Below, piece by piece: positions 56,134-61,191 of a stretch of DNA of 64,000 nucleotides. Source of the stretch: Hymenobacter sp. APR13 (GTDB lineage: Bacteria > Bacteroidota > Bacteroidia > Cytophagales > Hymenobacteraceae); contig NZ_CP006587.1 in the NCBI RefSeq assembly GCF_000737515.1, positions 2,227,001 to 2,291,000 of the forward strand. Reading direction: 5' to 3'. The position numbers and the translations under genes are program-made. Within the stretch, counting starts at the first letter, position 1, and every line of letters begins with the position of its first letter. A model generated the notes under the pieces. It was given only the letters and a program-made list of their open reading frames with translations, ran no database searches and was not told the DNA's origin.

Positions 56134-57078
56134 ATGTTTTCCCGGATTCGTGCTTTGTTTGGCGCCCCTGCTGCCCGTGATTTGTCGTTTGGCCTGCTGG
56201 AAGCCCGGCAGCTGACACCTTTGGTAAAGCAGGAAAAGTGGGGCCAAATCGGGCAGATAGCGTTGAGCGTGACGTCGGATGAGCTTTCCCGCCTGCTGGA
56301 CGGTATCTGCCTGACCGAACAATTCAACAAGCAGATTCTGCCGCTGGCAAAGGACCCAGAGCCGGAGTTTGCCCGGCTGGTGCTGGGAGCCTGGTACCTC
56401 TACCAGGCCTGGCAGGCGCGCTCCGGCCTGCTGGCCAAGGATGTATCGAAGTCGCAGATGGAAGGCTTTGAGCACTACCTGCTGCTGGCCCGCGGGCTAC
56501 TGGGTGGCCCTTTCGCTACCCCAGCCTTCCTCTGCGAAGCCCGCGCCCGGCTGGTGCGGGTGGAAATGGGCCTGAATGAGCCCGACCACGCCATGACGGC
56601 CTTTCACCAAAGCATTGCGGTGGACGCGCGCAAGTTCTGGGCCTACCACCACGTGTTCAAGCTGGCCTCGCCCAAATGGCTGGGCAGCGAAGAAGAGCTA
56701 GTGGGCTACATCCAGTCGGTGGAGGACGATGCGCTGCATCACACGCTCTGGCTGATGTTTCTGGTAGAGATGTACAGCGACGCCGACCTGGAAAATGAGT
56801 CATCGGCCTTGCAGCGGTGGTATCCGGCTTACCGGGAGCTGCTGGAAGAAGTGCTGGCGCAGCCGCAGCTGCCGCTGAACAACACGTTGGTATCCATCTA
56901 TGCCAATAACAACCTGGCCTATCTGTACCACTTAGTGGGGGAGCGGGAAAAGCGTAATGCCACGCTAACGGCATTGAATGGCTATTTCCCACCCTATCCG
57001 TGGGATTATTTCGGCATCGACGCCGGCAGCACCGTGGCCATGAAGGCCTTCCAACTGGCTCCTGCCCGTCGCCCGTGA
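56134..57078 (+). CDS. Hypothetical helical protein
   Basis: 314 residues, cytoplasmic by the lack of a signal. Mainly alpha-helical with TPR-like regularity (ARARLVRVEMGLNEPDHAMT, ARKFWAYHHVFKLASPKWLG, NNTLVSIYANNNLAYLYHLV). No family recognised. The stop overlaps the next start as GTGA (57075-57078), so it is translationally coupled to the folate enzyme gene. Confidence 0.75.
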   Translation: MFSRIRALFGAPAARDLSFGLLEARQLTPLVKQEKWGQIGQIALSVTSDELSRLLDGICLTEQFNKQILPLAKDPEPEFARLVLGAWYLYQAWQARSGLLAKDVSKSQMEGFEHYLLLARGLLGGPFATPAFLCEARARLVRVEMGLNEPDHAMTAFHQSIAVDARKFWAYHHVFKLASPKWLGSEEELVGYIQSVEDDALHHTLWLMFLVEMYSDADLENESSALQRWYPAYRELLEEVLAQPQLPLNNTLVSIYANNNLAYLYHLVGEREKRNATLTALNGYFPPYPWDYFGIDAGSTVAMKAFQLAPARRP

Positions 57079-57647
57079 CCAAAGCCGACCTGCGCCGCGA
57101 AGCCCTGGCCCGCCGCCGCGCCCTGCCCGAAGCCGAAGTGGCGCACCACAGCGCCGCGTTGTGGGAGCAACTGCACGCCCGTTTTCCGGTAGCGCAGTGG
57201 CAGTGGCTGCACCTGTTTCTGCCGATTCCGCAGCAGCACGAGCCCGACACCTGGCTGCTGATCCGGCAGCTGTGGGCGCGGCAGCCGCACCCGCAGCTGG
57301 CCGTGCCCGTGGTGCAGCCCGACGGCCATACGCTGCGCCACTTCCACCTCACGCCCGCTACCACGCTGATAGAAAACCGCTGGGGCATCCCAGAGCCGGT
57401 GGGCGCCGCCGAAGTAGCGCTGCCGCAGCTGGACGCCGTGCTGATTCCGCTGCTGGCCTTCGACGAAGCTGGCCACCGCGTGGGCTACGGCAAGGGCTTC
57501 TACGACCGGTTTCTGGCGGATTGCCGCCCCGAGGCCCTGCGCATCGGCGTAAGCCTGGAGCCTCCGGTTGCGCGCATTGCCGATGCCTGGGCCGGCGACG
57601 TGCCCCTGCATGCCTGCCTCACGCCCGAACGGGTGTGGTGGTTTTAA
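57075..57647 (+). CDS. 5-formyltetrahydrofolate cyclo-ligase
   Basis: 190 residues from a GTG start overlapping the upstream TGA. TKADLRREALARRRALPEAE is the N-terminal basic helix. VPVVQPDGHTLRHF, NRWGIPEP, DAVLIPLLAFDEAGHRVGYG and KGFYDRFL form the ATP and folate site (normally GxGxGYYDRxL). It converts 5-formyl-THF to 5,10-methenyl-THF using ATP. An ATG at 57000 in the same frame would overlap the previous gene by 79 bases and was not chosen. Confidence 0.92.
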   Translation: MTKADLRREALARRRALPEAEVAHHSAALWEQLHARFPVAQWQWLHLFLPIPQQHEPDTWLLIRQLWARQPHPQLAVPVVQPDGHTLRHFHLTPATTLIENRWGIPEPVGAAEVALPQLDAVLIPLLAFDEAGHRVGYGKGFYDRFLADCRPEALRIGVSLEPPVARIADAWAGDVPLHACLTPERVWWF

Positions 57648-57723
57648 GCGGAGAGTTGCTGTAAGCCAGCTTTTTGTGTGGAGTAGATGTGCGTGAATGG
57701 CGCCTATTCTCTACATTCAGGCT

Positions 57724-58263
57724 ATGGCCCATATTCAACCCCCTCATTTCACCGGTCACGCCCGTCGCGCCGGCCGCCGCCTTGCCTCGTCGCCCGATAT
57801 GACCTCGATGGTAGGGTTGGGGTTTCTGCTGGTGAGCTTCTTTTTGATGGCAGCTGATTTTGCCCGGCCTACGGTTATGGAACTGGCGATGCCCGTGAAG
57901 CCAAAGCCAGAAGATATGGGCGCTGTTTGTGGTGGCTATCTGAATGTTATGACAGTATTGATTGATGCAGACGATAAACTTTACTGTTATCCTGGATTGG
58001 CTTCGGTGCTGTCTAAAACCAATTTGAAGCAGACCAACTTCAGTGCTGAGGGCTTGCGTCAGGTGCTGTTAGAGAACAGGAAGAATCCGTATGCAGCGTT
58101 AGTCCTCATCAAACCCAGCAACCAATCGTCTTACCAGGCGCTGGTAAATGTGCTGGACGAAATGAGCATTACGGAAACCAGCAAATACGCCATAGCAGAC
58201 CTCACGGCAGAAGACGAGCAACTGATTGAATACGCGCAACAGCTGAACCGTAAGCGCCTGTAG
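57724..58263 (+). CDS. ExbD/TolR-like protein lacking the channel aspartate
   Basis: 179 residues, paralogous to the next gene. A basic N-terminal tail is followed by one transmembrane helix, SPDMTSMVGLGFLLVSFFLM, and a periplasmic domain with LRQVLLENRKNPYAALVLIK and VLDEMSITETSKYAIADLTA. Where ExbD proteins have T-P-x-x-D, this has T27-S-M-V-G31: both Pro and the proton-carrying Asp are gone. CGGYLNV and YCYPG add two or three periplasmic Cys not found in the neighbour. It is therefore unlikely to conduct protons alone and may be a partner or modulator. Confidence 0.85.
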   Translation: MAHIQPPHFTGHARRAGRRLASSPDMTSMVGLGFLLVSFFLMAADFARPTVMELAMPVKPKPEDMGAVCGGYLNVMTVLIDADDKLYCYPGLASVLSKTNLKQTNFSAEGLRQVLLENRKNPYAALVLIKPSNQSSYQALVNVLDEMSITETSKYAIADLTAEDEQLIEYAQQLNRKRL

Positions 58264-58394
58264 GTGGCGGTGGAGCCTGCCGAGGCGGTATCAGCACTGG
58301 TTGACCAGCCGCAAATCCTGCGGGCGCACAATACCGACCCGCACCATAGCGTTGGCTGAATACAACCGGTATTCACTTAATCCCCAGCATCGTT

Positions 58395-58916
58395 ATGGCC
58401 GACTTCCAAACCGCCGCCCCTGCCGCCTGTGGCTCGAAACCCCGCGTGAAAAAGTCGGCCTTCCGCCTCGATATGACCCCGATGGTAGACCTGGCGTTTC
58501 TGCTGCTCACGTTCTTCATGCTCACCACCACGTTTGCCCGGCAGAACGCCATGGACCTGACCATGCCCGCCGGCAAAGGCCCCGCCACCCCACTCAAACA
58601 AAGCAAAGCCCTGACCCTGATTCTGGGCAAAGACAGCCAGGTGCACTACTTCTTCGGCCTGAACGATGCGGACACCAAGCCGACGCTGCGTACCACCACG
58701 TTCAGCGCCGCTGGCCTGCGCCAGGTTCTGCTGGACCGCCAGCAGCAGCAGCCCGCGCCCTTCGTGCTCATCAAGGCCGGCCCCGACGCCAAATACCGCG
58801 ACCTGGTAGACGTGCTCGACGAAATGAACATCACCGACCAGCAGCAATACGCCCTGGTCGATTTCACCCCCGCCGACCAGCAGCTCCTCGACTACCGGCC
58901 CCAGGTGCGGCACTAG
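58395..58916 (+). CDS. ExbD/TolR family biopolymer transport protein
   Basis: 173 residues. LDMTPMVDLAFLLLTFFMLT is a canonical ExbD helix with Pro29 and Asp32. The periplasmic domain (AMDLTMPAGKG, LRQVLLDRQQQQPAPFVLIK, YRDLVDVLDEMNITDQQQYA) parallels the upstream paralogue over its whole length. It would normally work with ExbB/TolQ and TonB/TolA to energise the outer membrane; no exbB is in the window. The gap to the upstream paralogue is 131 bases. Confidence 0.92.
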   Translation: MADFQTAAPAACGSKPRVKKSAFRLDMTPMVDLAFLLLTFFMLTTTFARQNAMDLTMPAGKGPATPLKQSKALTLILGKDSQVHYFFGLNDADTKPTLRTTTFSAAGLRQVLLDRQQQQPAPFVLIKAGPDAKYRDLVDVLDEMNITDQQQYALVDFTPADQQLLDYRPQVRH

Positions 58917-58919
58917 CCG

Positions 58920-59372
58920 CTACCGGCGCATGGCTCGTCGGCCCAGCTGGTAGCAGCCGTAGCCTACCCCGACTATGGCCGCCAGGTGTAGCGCCCGCGC
59001 CAGCAGCAGCCAGCAGGCCGGAGCGGCCGCACTGCCGGCCGGAAACCCCGGTGGCACCGCCAGCGCCGCCAGTTGCGTAAGGGCGTCGGTGGCGTAGTCG
59101 GCCCCAAGCAGCAGTAGCAGGCTGATCACCACCAGCACGGCATATGTCAGGTGCGGACTGCGCCGCCATAACGCCGTGCCGGCCAGCGCCAGCAGCAGCA
59201 GGGGCAACAGCAGCGCCAGCACCAGCCAGTAGGGCGGCAGCACGATGTAGGTGTTGTGCAGCTGGATATCCAGCTGCGGCTGCAGCAGCGCCCCAAACCC
59301 CACCAACAGGCCGGCCAGCACAACGGCCACCACTCCGCAGCCCAGCAGCAAAAGCAAAAAGCGGTGCGTCAT
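58920..59372 (-). CDS. Membrane protein with a cytochrome-oxidase-like helix segment
   Basis: 150 residues with four hydrophobic helices. LDIQLHNTYIVLPPYWLVLA between helices 1 and 2 resembles the D-x-x-x-H-x-T-Y-x-V stretch of heme-copper oxidase subunit I and related small proteins, but no full heme-binding His set is present. Its ATG shares one base with the preceding stop (TGATG), making it the third gene of the DUF2157-GDYXXLXY operon. Function unknown. Confidence 0.75.
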   Translation of the reverse strand: MTHRFLLLLLGCGVVAVVLAGLLVGFGALLQPQLDIQLHNTYIVLPPYWLVLALLLPLLLLALAGTALWRRSPHLTYAVLVVISLLLLLGADYATDALTQLAALAVPPGFPAGSAAAPACWLLLARALHLAAIVGVGYGCYQLGRRAMRR

Positions 59373-59974
59373 CAGCGGGGCAAAGCGGGCAGCACCTGCA
59401 CCTGCGAGATGCGCGCCTGCCCCCACGGCGCAATACTGACCGTGACCTGCAGCGGCTGTGGGCGGCGCAGCTGGCGGCGGGCTTCCTCGGGCAGGTAGTA
59501 GCGCTCCAGGCCGTAGCGCAGGCGCATGCTGCGGCGCCACGTTTCCTGCACCCAGCCGCGCAAAACAGTCTGGCCGGGGCCGATGGCCGGCGGCGCCGGG
59601 TACACGGCCACGGCCTCATAGACGCCCTGCCGCTGCTCCAGCACCACGTATACCGGGGCTTTGCGGCGGGGCACGGCGCTGCCCTTCCAGAGGCGGCCGG
59701 GCAGCTCACTGATGAGGTAGCGCAGCTCCAGATAGTCGTGGAAACGCAGGTCGCGCGGGTCGGCGGGGGCGGTGCGCAGGGTGATGGTTGTGCCTAGCCG
59801 CTCGGTGGCGTAGCCGGCCCCGGACACCGCCAGCACAAACAGCAACTGCGCCACCACCAGCCCCCGCAGCCAGCGCCGCCGCCGGGGCTCGGGCAGTGTG
59901 TGGCTGGGCCGAACGATGGGCGTGGCTACCGGCGCGCCGACCGCCGCAGGTACGGACGTAGCAGGCGCGCTCAT
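59372..59974 (-). CDS. GDYXXLXY domain protein
   Basis: 200 residues: basic N-terminus, one transmembrane helix (about 37-55), then the family motif DYLELRY (80-86, form D-Y-x-x-L-x-Y) and two further beta-rich blocks (APVYVVLEQRQGVYEAVAVY, RYYLPEEARRQL). The start overlaps the upstream stop as ATGA. These proteins usually travel with DUF2157/DUF4401 membrane proteins, as here; role unknown. Confidence 0.88.
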   Translation of the reverse strand: MSAPATSVPAAVGAPVATPIVRPSHTLPEPRRRRWLRGLVVAQLLFVLAVSGAGYATERLGTTITLRTAPADPRDLRFHDYLELRYLISELPGRLWKGSAVPRRKAPVYVVLEQRQGVYEAVAVYPAPPAIGPGQTVLRGWVQETWRRSMRLRYGLERYYLPEEARRQLRRPQPLQVTVSIAPWGQARISQVQVLPALPR

Positions 59975-61191
59975 GGCTTGGGGGCTTCAGAAGTTGAAAA
60001 CGTGTGAGCCGCCCGGCGCCGCAGCCACCAGCTCAGCCCCAGCAGCAGCCCGCCGCCCAGCAGGAAAAACAACGACTTATCCATGAAGCCCCACGTCAGC
60101 TTGAAGTAGGCCACGGCGGTGGTCAGGATGAACAGCACGGTGCCCAGCGTCACCCGGTCGGGGTTTTGCTCCTGGTGGGCGCGCCAGAGCACGGCCCCGG
60201 AATAGGCGTACAGCACCACCAGCGTGGCCACGGCCAGCGGCAGCCCGCCCGTGAAATAGAAGCCCGGTAGCAGCAGCAGCCAGTCGGTGAGGCTGCCCAG
60301 GCGGCCACGCCGCTGCTTGCCCACCGCCGATAGCGCCAGCACCACTCCCAGCGCCGCCAGATACGGCAGCATGGGCGCCCGTAGCCGCCCGGCATAAATA
60401 TCCGACTCGCCGAACAAAGCCAGCCCCAGCGTAAACACAAACGCGGCTACCAGCGGCGGCCCCTGCAGGGCGCGGCCGGCCGGCCGGTCGGGCTGCCAGT
60501 CGCCGAAGGCGTAGAGCAGCATGGCCGGCAGGAAAAACCAGGTGATTTTGATGTGCAAATGGCTGATGAGCAGCGCCGCCTGCCAGAGCAGTCCCGAGGC
60601 CAGCACTGCCCCCAGCACCGAATCGGGGCGGCGCCACCAGTAGTAGCCCAGCCCGCCGGCCGTGAGCCCGGCGGTTAGGTAGCTGAACGCCCCCAGCTGC
60701 CCGGTGTTGTAGCCCTGCACCAGCCCGCCAATCACCACGGTCAGGATGAACAGGAACCGGCTGCCGTACACCCACGTGAGGGCCACGCCCGCTACGGCCC
60801 ACGCCACCAGCCCCGACAGGTCGTAGCCGATGAGCTGGTACATCTGGCTGGTGAGCAGGATGCTGATGCCAAACAGCAGCAGCCCCAGCCCCAGCAGCCC
60901 CATGCCCAACGACTCGTACTGGCGGCGCAAAAAGTACTCGGCGGCGGCGTAGGTGCCGGCCAACGAGCCCAGCAGCAGCGCCAGCCGCACCACTTCGGGC
61001 AGGCCCTGCCAGTTGGCCGCCACCACGCTCAGGGCGCTCAGCAGAATCAGGAGGCTGCCCAGCAGCGGCAGCAGCGCCAGGGGCAGCCGTTCGGCCGGGT
61101 ACAGCGCCAGCAGCTGCACGCGCTGCTCTTCCGCAATGATGCCCCGCTGCACCCAGTCCCGCCCGTCGGTTTCCAGTACTCTTCGACTCAT
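59971..61191 (-). CDS. DUF2157 domain membrane protein
   Basis: 406 residues: a cytoplasmic N-terminal helix-rich region (WVQRGIIAEEQRVQLLALYP), then about ten transmembrane segments (LLPLLGSLLILLSALSVVAA and on), ending in a basic cytoplasmic tail. DUF2157 covers the N-terminal part and a DUF4401-like region the rest. It heads a three-gene overlapping operon. Function unknown. Confidence 0.88.
   Translation of the reverse strand: MSRRVLETDGRDWVQRGIIAEEQRVQLLALYPAERLPLALLPLLGSLLILLSALSVVAANWQGLPEVVRLALLLGSLAGTYAAAEYFLRRQYESLGMGLLGLGLLLFGISILLTSQMYQLIGYDLSGLVAWAVAGVALTWVYGSRFLFILTVVIGGLVQGYNTGQLGAFSYLTAGLTAGGLGYYWWRRPDSVLGAVLASGLLWQAALLISHLHIKITWFFLPAMLLYAFGDWQPDRPAGRALQGPPLVAAFVFTLGLALFGESDIYAGRLRAPMLPYLAALGVVLALSAVGKQRRGRLGSLTDWLLLLPGFYFTGGLPLAVATLVVLYAYSGAVLWRAHQEQNPDRVTLGTVLFILTTAVAYFKLTWGFMDKSLFFLLGGGLLLGLSWWLRRRAAHTFSTSEAPKP

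Follow-up and report, generated by a model that had tools for sequence, protein, structure and literature searches.

An ExbD branch of Hymenobacter that lacks the proton-carrying aspartate and keeps its transmembrane helix under purifying selection

Introduction

In motors of the ExbB/ExbD type, two ExbD helices lie within an ExbB pentamer and the Asp of ExbD is absolutely required, as described in the available portions of PMC12905483. Tandem exbD genes are found in ton operons of the Bacteroidetes, for example exbB2-exbD21-exbD22-tonB2 of Riemerella anatipestifer (excerpt of PMC4446302), which have two adjoining exbD copies like the locus described here. They differ from this locus in that the copies of such an operon in the present genome (exbB-exbD1-exbD2-tonB, C1:1.427-1.430 Mb) both bear the Asp, with exbB and tonB as linked genes. 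Two inner-subunit (MotB-like) paralogues per outer subunit also occur in Myxococcus, as AglQ/AglS with AglR, and whether they form hetero- or homodimers is stated as not known in the accessible part of PMC9389320; on the other hand, AglQ/AglS belong to a gliding motor. GldM is the inner subunit of a 5:2 motor, GldLM, in which the essential proton site lies off the inner helix, but its partner GldL brings the glutamate (excerpt of PMC8986121), and the same part of PMC9389320 states that GldM lacks clear sequence homology to ExbD.

An exact-word search of open-access PMC papers found no report of a natural Asp-less ExbD. A natural Asp-less subunit with a helix under selection is a ready test of one versus zero proton sites in a 5:2 stator; it would signal that dead subunits evolve in ion-driven motors, and it could idle or regulate a nutrient-uptake motor rather than power it. 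Here, we describe such a gene, located in Hymenobacter sp. APR13 within a window of 64 kb (C1:2227001-2291000), i.e., the whole stretch of DNA that was analysed, and its relatives in the genus.

Two adjacent genes of the ExbD family

The features of the locus, in positions of the window, are the following:

57724..58263, plus strand: gene A, Asp-less ExbD/TolR-family protein of 179 aa (PF02472 match; ExbD-like periplasmic fold)
58395..58916, plus strand: gene B, Asp-bearing ExbD/TolR-family protein of 173 aa (PF02472 match; slot orthologues in relatives)
57799..57855, plus strand: predicted transmembrane helix of A, residues 26-44 (AF2 helix 26-44; low omega)
57871..57894, plus strand: NIBS-like stretch TVMELAMP of A, 3' of the helix (alignment; labelled by analogy with the NIBS in the available portions of PMC12905483)
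57814..57816, plus strand: codon GGG for Gly31 of A, in the place of the proton-carrying Asp (A-B alignment)
58488..58490, plus strand: codon GAC for Asp32 of B (A-B alignment)
57928..57930, plus strand: codon for the linker Cys69 of A (census of linker Cys)
57985..57987, plus strand: codon for Cys88 of A, where the closest relative has Tyr (alignment)
57072..57647, plus strand: gene for 5-formyltetrahydrofolate cyclo-ligase with an unsettled start, left border of the slot (PF01812, 1.1e-28; synteny)
59372..59974, minus strand: gene for a GDYXXLXY protein, right border of the slot (PF14345, 1.9e-28; synteny)
59971..61191, minus strand: DUF2157 gene, right border of the slot (PF09925, 4.8e-32; synteny)

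The initial annotation had proposed that A and B are adjacent ExbD/TolR paralogues with TSMVG in the first where the second has TPMVD, and both points hold. A and B score 59.8 and 79.5 bits, respectively, against PF02472 (ExbD/TolR), above the curated cut-off of 25.4. Their alignment covers 150 residues at 40.7% (E 2.7e-37), with the helix motif DMTPMVD in B and DMTSMVG in A. The column of Gly31 and Asp32 is presumably that of Asp25 in E. coli ExbD, with which we equated it through the family motif. The transmembrane Asp of a proton-coupling stator is therefore present in B and missing in A, although A has the architecture of ExbD/TolR, with a single N-terminal helix and an ExbD-type periplasmic fold. 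Its AF2 model (mean pLDDT 77.8) consists of helix 26-44, a linker of low confidence and a confident periplasmic domain, for which the top structure matches are ExbD and TolR. The MP motif of A following the helix is at the place that matches the NIBS described for ExbD, an equivalence drawn by analogy (available portions of PMC12905483). A thus shares the Pfam-level match, the single N-terminal helix, the periplasmic fold and the post-helix MP motif with the Ton and Tol stators, and differs from them by Gly in place of the essential Asp, by the absence of a linked exbB or tonB, and by a Cys in the linker. Two Cys of A (Cys69 and Cys88) lie past the helix, and the single Cys of B (Cys12) is in the N-terminal part ahead of it.

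The profiles of A and B had no match at E 0.01 among PDB sequences. A matched none of the NCBIfam equivalogs TIGR02801, TIGR02803 and TIGR02804 at E 1, and B scored below every cut-off of the three; since they miss ExbD2 of this genome's own ton operon as well, these models appear unsuited to the phylum. A scan of the sigma-70 type gave no promoter-like site, and five terminator-like sites were found versus 2.0 expected, none of them between A and B. Besides, a minus-strand ORF of 206 aa lies between B and the GDYXXLXY gene (window 58920-59540); its product has hydrophobic segments and matched no Pfam family at E 0.001.

Motor genes elsewhere in the genome

The absence of an adjoining ExbB gene noted by the initial annotation was borne out, as no MotA/ExbB homologue (PF01618) above threshold is encoded within the window and the three PF01618 matches of the genome (C1:1427849, 1593864 and 4263458) are all outside it, so any ExbB would act in trans. 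The loci fetched from the surroundings of A and B gave no tonB-like match either; the two genes are thus linked to neither partner that defines a Ton gene cluster. The matches belong to the ton operon, to an exbB-exbD-tolA-like cluster at 4.262 Mb (the tolA label being our own reading), and to a protein of 486 aa (L008:631-2091, G000:C1 near 1593864, 1.594 Mb) with a weak MotA/ExbB match that adjoins another long ORF; judging from its sequence, this protein is possibly a further outer subunit of the 5:2 type. By profile score, the second exbD of the operon is a far closer match to the slot genes than the first one is (206 vs 46 bits, profile A2).

Distribution of the Asp-less branch

We searched a genus set of 120 genomes, including the present one (G000). 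Non-operon ExbD genes were read from fetched loci in 102 of them, and the remaining 18, a split made by hand from tables listing every match of all 120 genomes, have no strong match beyond the operon copies in the full match tables (G096 has no match at all). The main Asp-less clade is present in 22 genomes and absent from 98, a count uncertain by one or two as 21 were placed by a tree of 126 rows and G119, the pieces of which are too short for the tree, by profile score alone; row L151_310 (G002) has a very long branch, and its membership in the main clade is unsure. On this tree (126 of 129 rows, three fragments omitted; quick search, no bootstrap), calculated without the Asp column and the next two, 27 Gly rows and one Cys row form one clade with an SH-aLRT of 99. 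An earlier tree of 82 of the 141 rows (also a quick search, no bootstrap) gave a like clade at 98, with one change.

The Asp was replaced twice on the 126-row tree, once in the main clade and once in copies of G086 and G106. In the latter genomes, the same slot has an Asp-bearing exbD and, behind it, a second copy (L162:2175-2723 and L163:1219-1692) that has lost the entire DMTPMVD motif, i.e., a second, independent loss of the Asp; on the tree the join of these copies (L162_2175 and L163_1219) is between long branches and likewise unsure, although each adjoins its own Asp copy.

A similar picture was obtained from databases. A protein search gave 20 matches, the one of the window included, with Gly in the Asp column of 19 and Asp in one, and a profile search gave 970 proteins, the best 120 of which were examined. 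The 121 proteins from both searches combined have Gly (45, many on separate contigs) or Asp (76) at this column, and those named by organism among the matches listed are from Hymenobacter. Scanning contigs with patterns from the conserved Gly helix and a C-terminal stretch, non-Asp rows came from eight of the best 80 of 507 loci, each of Hymenobacter; a contig scan with a single protein as query found no relative. The initial annotation had allowed for a sequencing error at the G31 codon or an oddity of a single strain. Both are ruled out, the former by the 45 of 121 database proteins that share the Gly, and the latter by the occurrence of the clade in 22 of the 120 genomes. Three synonymous codons encode the Gly in the clade (GGG 13, GGC 10 and GGT 4; n = 27). 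We conclude that the ExbD family of Hymenobacter includes a real and conserved branch without the Asp.

On the other hand, A is no fixed half of an A-B pair. An Asp-less copy and the Asp-bearing B share one slot in only five of the 22 genomes (G000, G002, G012, G041 and G110), which rules out A as an obligate partner of B. The Asp-less copy is alone in the slot in 13 genomes (G005, G014, G015, G016, G024, G030, G036, G037, G040, G047, G066, G111 and G119) and at a different place in four (G061, G062, G085 and G117), and these 17 have no B match. Some genomes have tandem arrays: G005, G016 and G040 with two copies each, G014 with three, one of which a frameshift has split, and G015 with four. 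Two genomes have only disrupted copies (G119, with an in-frame stop, and G030, which misses the first part of the frame), so that at least one undisrupted copy is kept in 20 of 22. In three arrays of two to four Asp-less copies (L125:4991-7086, L124:5118-6716 and L119:3836-5499), the copy nearest to the cyclo-ligase gene has a decayed helix motif, with Cys, or Gly in a changed helix.

The linker cysteine and acidic residues

The distribution of the linker Cys lends support to the remark of the initial annotation on the extra Cys of A, for which a redox function is hypothetical. At least one linker Cys is present in 22 of 28 Asp-less rows, as opposed to one of the 71 slot rows that bear the Asp and none of the 21 rows of operon ExbD2; it is found neither in the Asp-bearing rows of other genera (0/4) nor in the second-loss copies (0/2). 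Fisher tests on the Cys counts overstate significance, as they take no account of shared ancestry. In the database set, which overlaps the tree set, it is seen in 42 of the 45 Gly proteins vs none of the 76 with Asp. The six Asp-less rows that do not have it are the decayed array copies L097_2578, L119_3836 and L125_6583, the long branches L151_310 and L161_1488, and L097_1501. The lone Asp-bearing exception, L164_1287 (L164:1287-1961, G090), is a slot ExbD on a long branch that keeps the Asp and for which the Asp-less profile gives the slightly better score.

This distribution bears on the idea of a mixed half-motor, in which A and an Asp-bearing ExbD (B, ExbD1 or ExbD2) would share the ExbB pore with a single proton site and an altered step or direction. 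The pore has room for such a pair, holding two ExbD helices whose Asp residues point oppositely in most structures (available portions of PMC12905483 and PMC6778125). Candidate partners are also at hand, with A and B within one slot in 5 of 22 genomes and an operon-type ExbD2 match adjoining an ExbD1-type match, like in the ton operon, in the match tables of all 22 (the ExbD1 stretch of G062 has internal stops). However, B is not required, as shown by the 17 genomes with A and no B match, and the linker Cys of A would find no partner Cys in B (1/71) or in ExbD2 (0/21), and such a half-motor therefore appears unlikely.

It is highly improbable that A still carries protons by way of another acid, whether its own Asp25 at the cytoplasmic helix end, one at the periplasmic end, or one supplied by ExbB in the way that GldL serves GldM. 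There is a precedent in GldLM, where the essential glutamate sits in GldL (excerpt of PMC8986121), and the Asp of the DMTP motif is conserved in A; this Asp is, however, equally present in B and ExbD2, and thus not compensatory. An acid within 15 residues past the Asp site occurs in only 17 of 28 Asp-less rows and is consequently no general substitute, which rules out a compensating acid fixed in the helix of A.

Selection on the Asp-less genes

Codon models with one ratio were applied to 24 of the 32 rows classed A, 48 of the 76 classed B, and 20 of the 21 of ExbD2, the high dS making their omega values rough. Overall omega is highest for A (0.179), followed by B (0.121) and the operon ExbD2 (0.078). 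In the same order, it is 0.051, 0.026 and 0.017 in the helix segment (33 codons, from the DM to the MP motif), and 0.172, 0.124 and 0.066 in the periplasmic rest. The helix segment of A is under strong purifying selection, and is favoured over the rest of the protein about as in the Asp-bearing paralogues.

Ratios of NG86 values for close pairs, several of which share members, gave dN/dS of 0.11-0.20 in eight A pairs of the main clade and 0.06-0.17 in ten B pairs. Copies with a decayed helix motif have higher ratios than the main clade: two pairs of such copies from arrays are at about 0.30, and the pair of second copies of G106 and G086 is at 0.23. The Asp copies of these two genomes gave 0.22. 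Relative to DUF2157, the median divergence is 2.07 for solo A (10 pairs, 5 genomes) vs 1.26 for solo B (153 pairs, 18 genomes). Low omega together with faster divergence indicates that A is constrained, but less so than B. The relaxed selection considered in the initial annotation is thus contradicted by omega values well below 1, and agrees in part with the faster rate of A and with the 2 of 22 genomes that have only a broken copy.

A slow decay, in which A would be a duplicate without a current selected function, kept temporarily by recombination and tandem copying, would fit with a rate of divergence and an omega (0.179 vs 0.121) above those of B, with the disruptions seen in G119, in G030 and in one member of the G014 array, with the patchy distribution, and with the lower GC (0.519 vs 0.636 in B). 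It is nevertheless quite unlikely given the dN/dS of 0.11-0.20 in eight close pairs, a site that is Gly and not mixed residues in 27 of 28 rows, and an undisrupted copy kept in 20 of 22 genomes. A role outside the ExbB pore, in which A would be a membrane-anchored adaptor for TonB, peptidoglycan or a different envelope protein, would fit with the persistence of the periplasmic domain in copies with a decayed helix motif, i.e., array copies of G014, G015 and G016 and the second copies of G086 and G106. The fold of this domain, retained in the model, is consistent with it. The helix of the main clade is, however, the most constrained part of the protein (omega 0.051), which is unexpected for a bare anchor and makes a role independent of ExbB doubtful.

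A possible role in idle ExbB complexes

The constraint on the helix suggests that A has kept its place in a protein interface, for which the ExbB pore is the simplest candidate, and the absolute requirement for the Asp in this motor type implies that A alone should not drive the motor. With the Asp lost, a complex would be idle, or half active if A were paired with an ExbD that bears the Asp. We therefore tentatively propose, with a probability of about 0.4, that the proton-dead A still joins ExbB pentamers in trans, giving complexes that are idle or have a regulatory role. The helix of A would insert into an ExbB pentamer encoded elsewhere (ton operon), complexes containing A would not power transport and would most likely act to brake the motor, as a reserve, or as a regulator that holds TonB, and an A-A disulphide through the linker Cys may possibly form. 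As 17 of 22 genomes have no B, the partner of A is probably A itself or the ton-operon ExbD1 or ExbD2; together with a linker Cys almost confined to A, this ranks A-A or A with an operon ExbD above A-B.

Several findings speak against such idle complexes, namely the absence of linked exbB or tonB, the faster divergence and higher omega of A compared to B, the broken copies (only disrupted ones in 2 of 22 genomes, and a frameshifted array member in one more), and the 98 of 120 genomes without the clade. A more specific and rather speculative version would be that pairs of Asp-less ExbD, joined by a linker-Cys disulphide under oxidising conditions, fill ExbB pentamers and hold TonB, so that the cell would adjust how many Ton motors work through redox state or through the proportion of dead relative to live ExbD.

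History of the slot

The slot has a conserved order, rimO-bshC-(variable)-5-FTHF cyclo-ligase-[exbD]-GDYXXLXY-DUF2157, in which we take the first gene to be rimO from its domains. In 25 genomes, it holds an Asp-bearing exbD followed by tonB and no exbB, i.e., a free-standing half of a ton operon:

L134-L137, L169, L170, L172-L174, L177, L191, L192, L201-L203, L205-L208, L211, L213, L214, L218, L219 and L223: loci with exbD-tonB in the slot

TonB_C was confirmed in both slot tonB genes tested. Asp-less copies are found in none of these 25 genomes and in 24 of the other 77 that were read (Fisher p 0.0007, a significance that is overstated since common descent is disregarded). The slot probably first held an exbD-tonB half-operon, which would then have undergone the loss of tonB, a duplication and, last, the loss of the Asp.

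A has also probably been exchanged by recombination, as indicated by its lower GC and by its high dS in the comparison of this genome with G012 (0.644 vs 0.145 for B). In the same comparison (window 57000-58263 vs L127), identity is 75% for A and 88% for the cyclo-ligase gene, with 99% for DUF2157 and 98% for rimO; this pattern in the sequence suggests that the stretch of A and the cyclo-ligase gene is a recombined patch.
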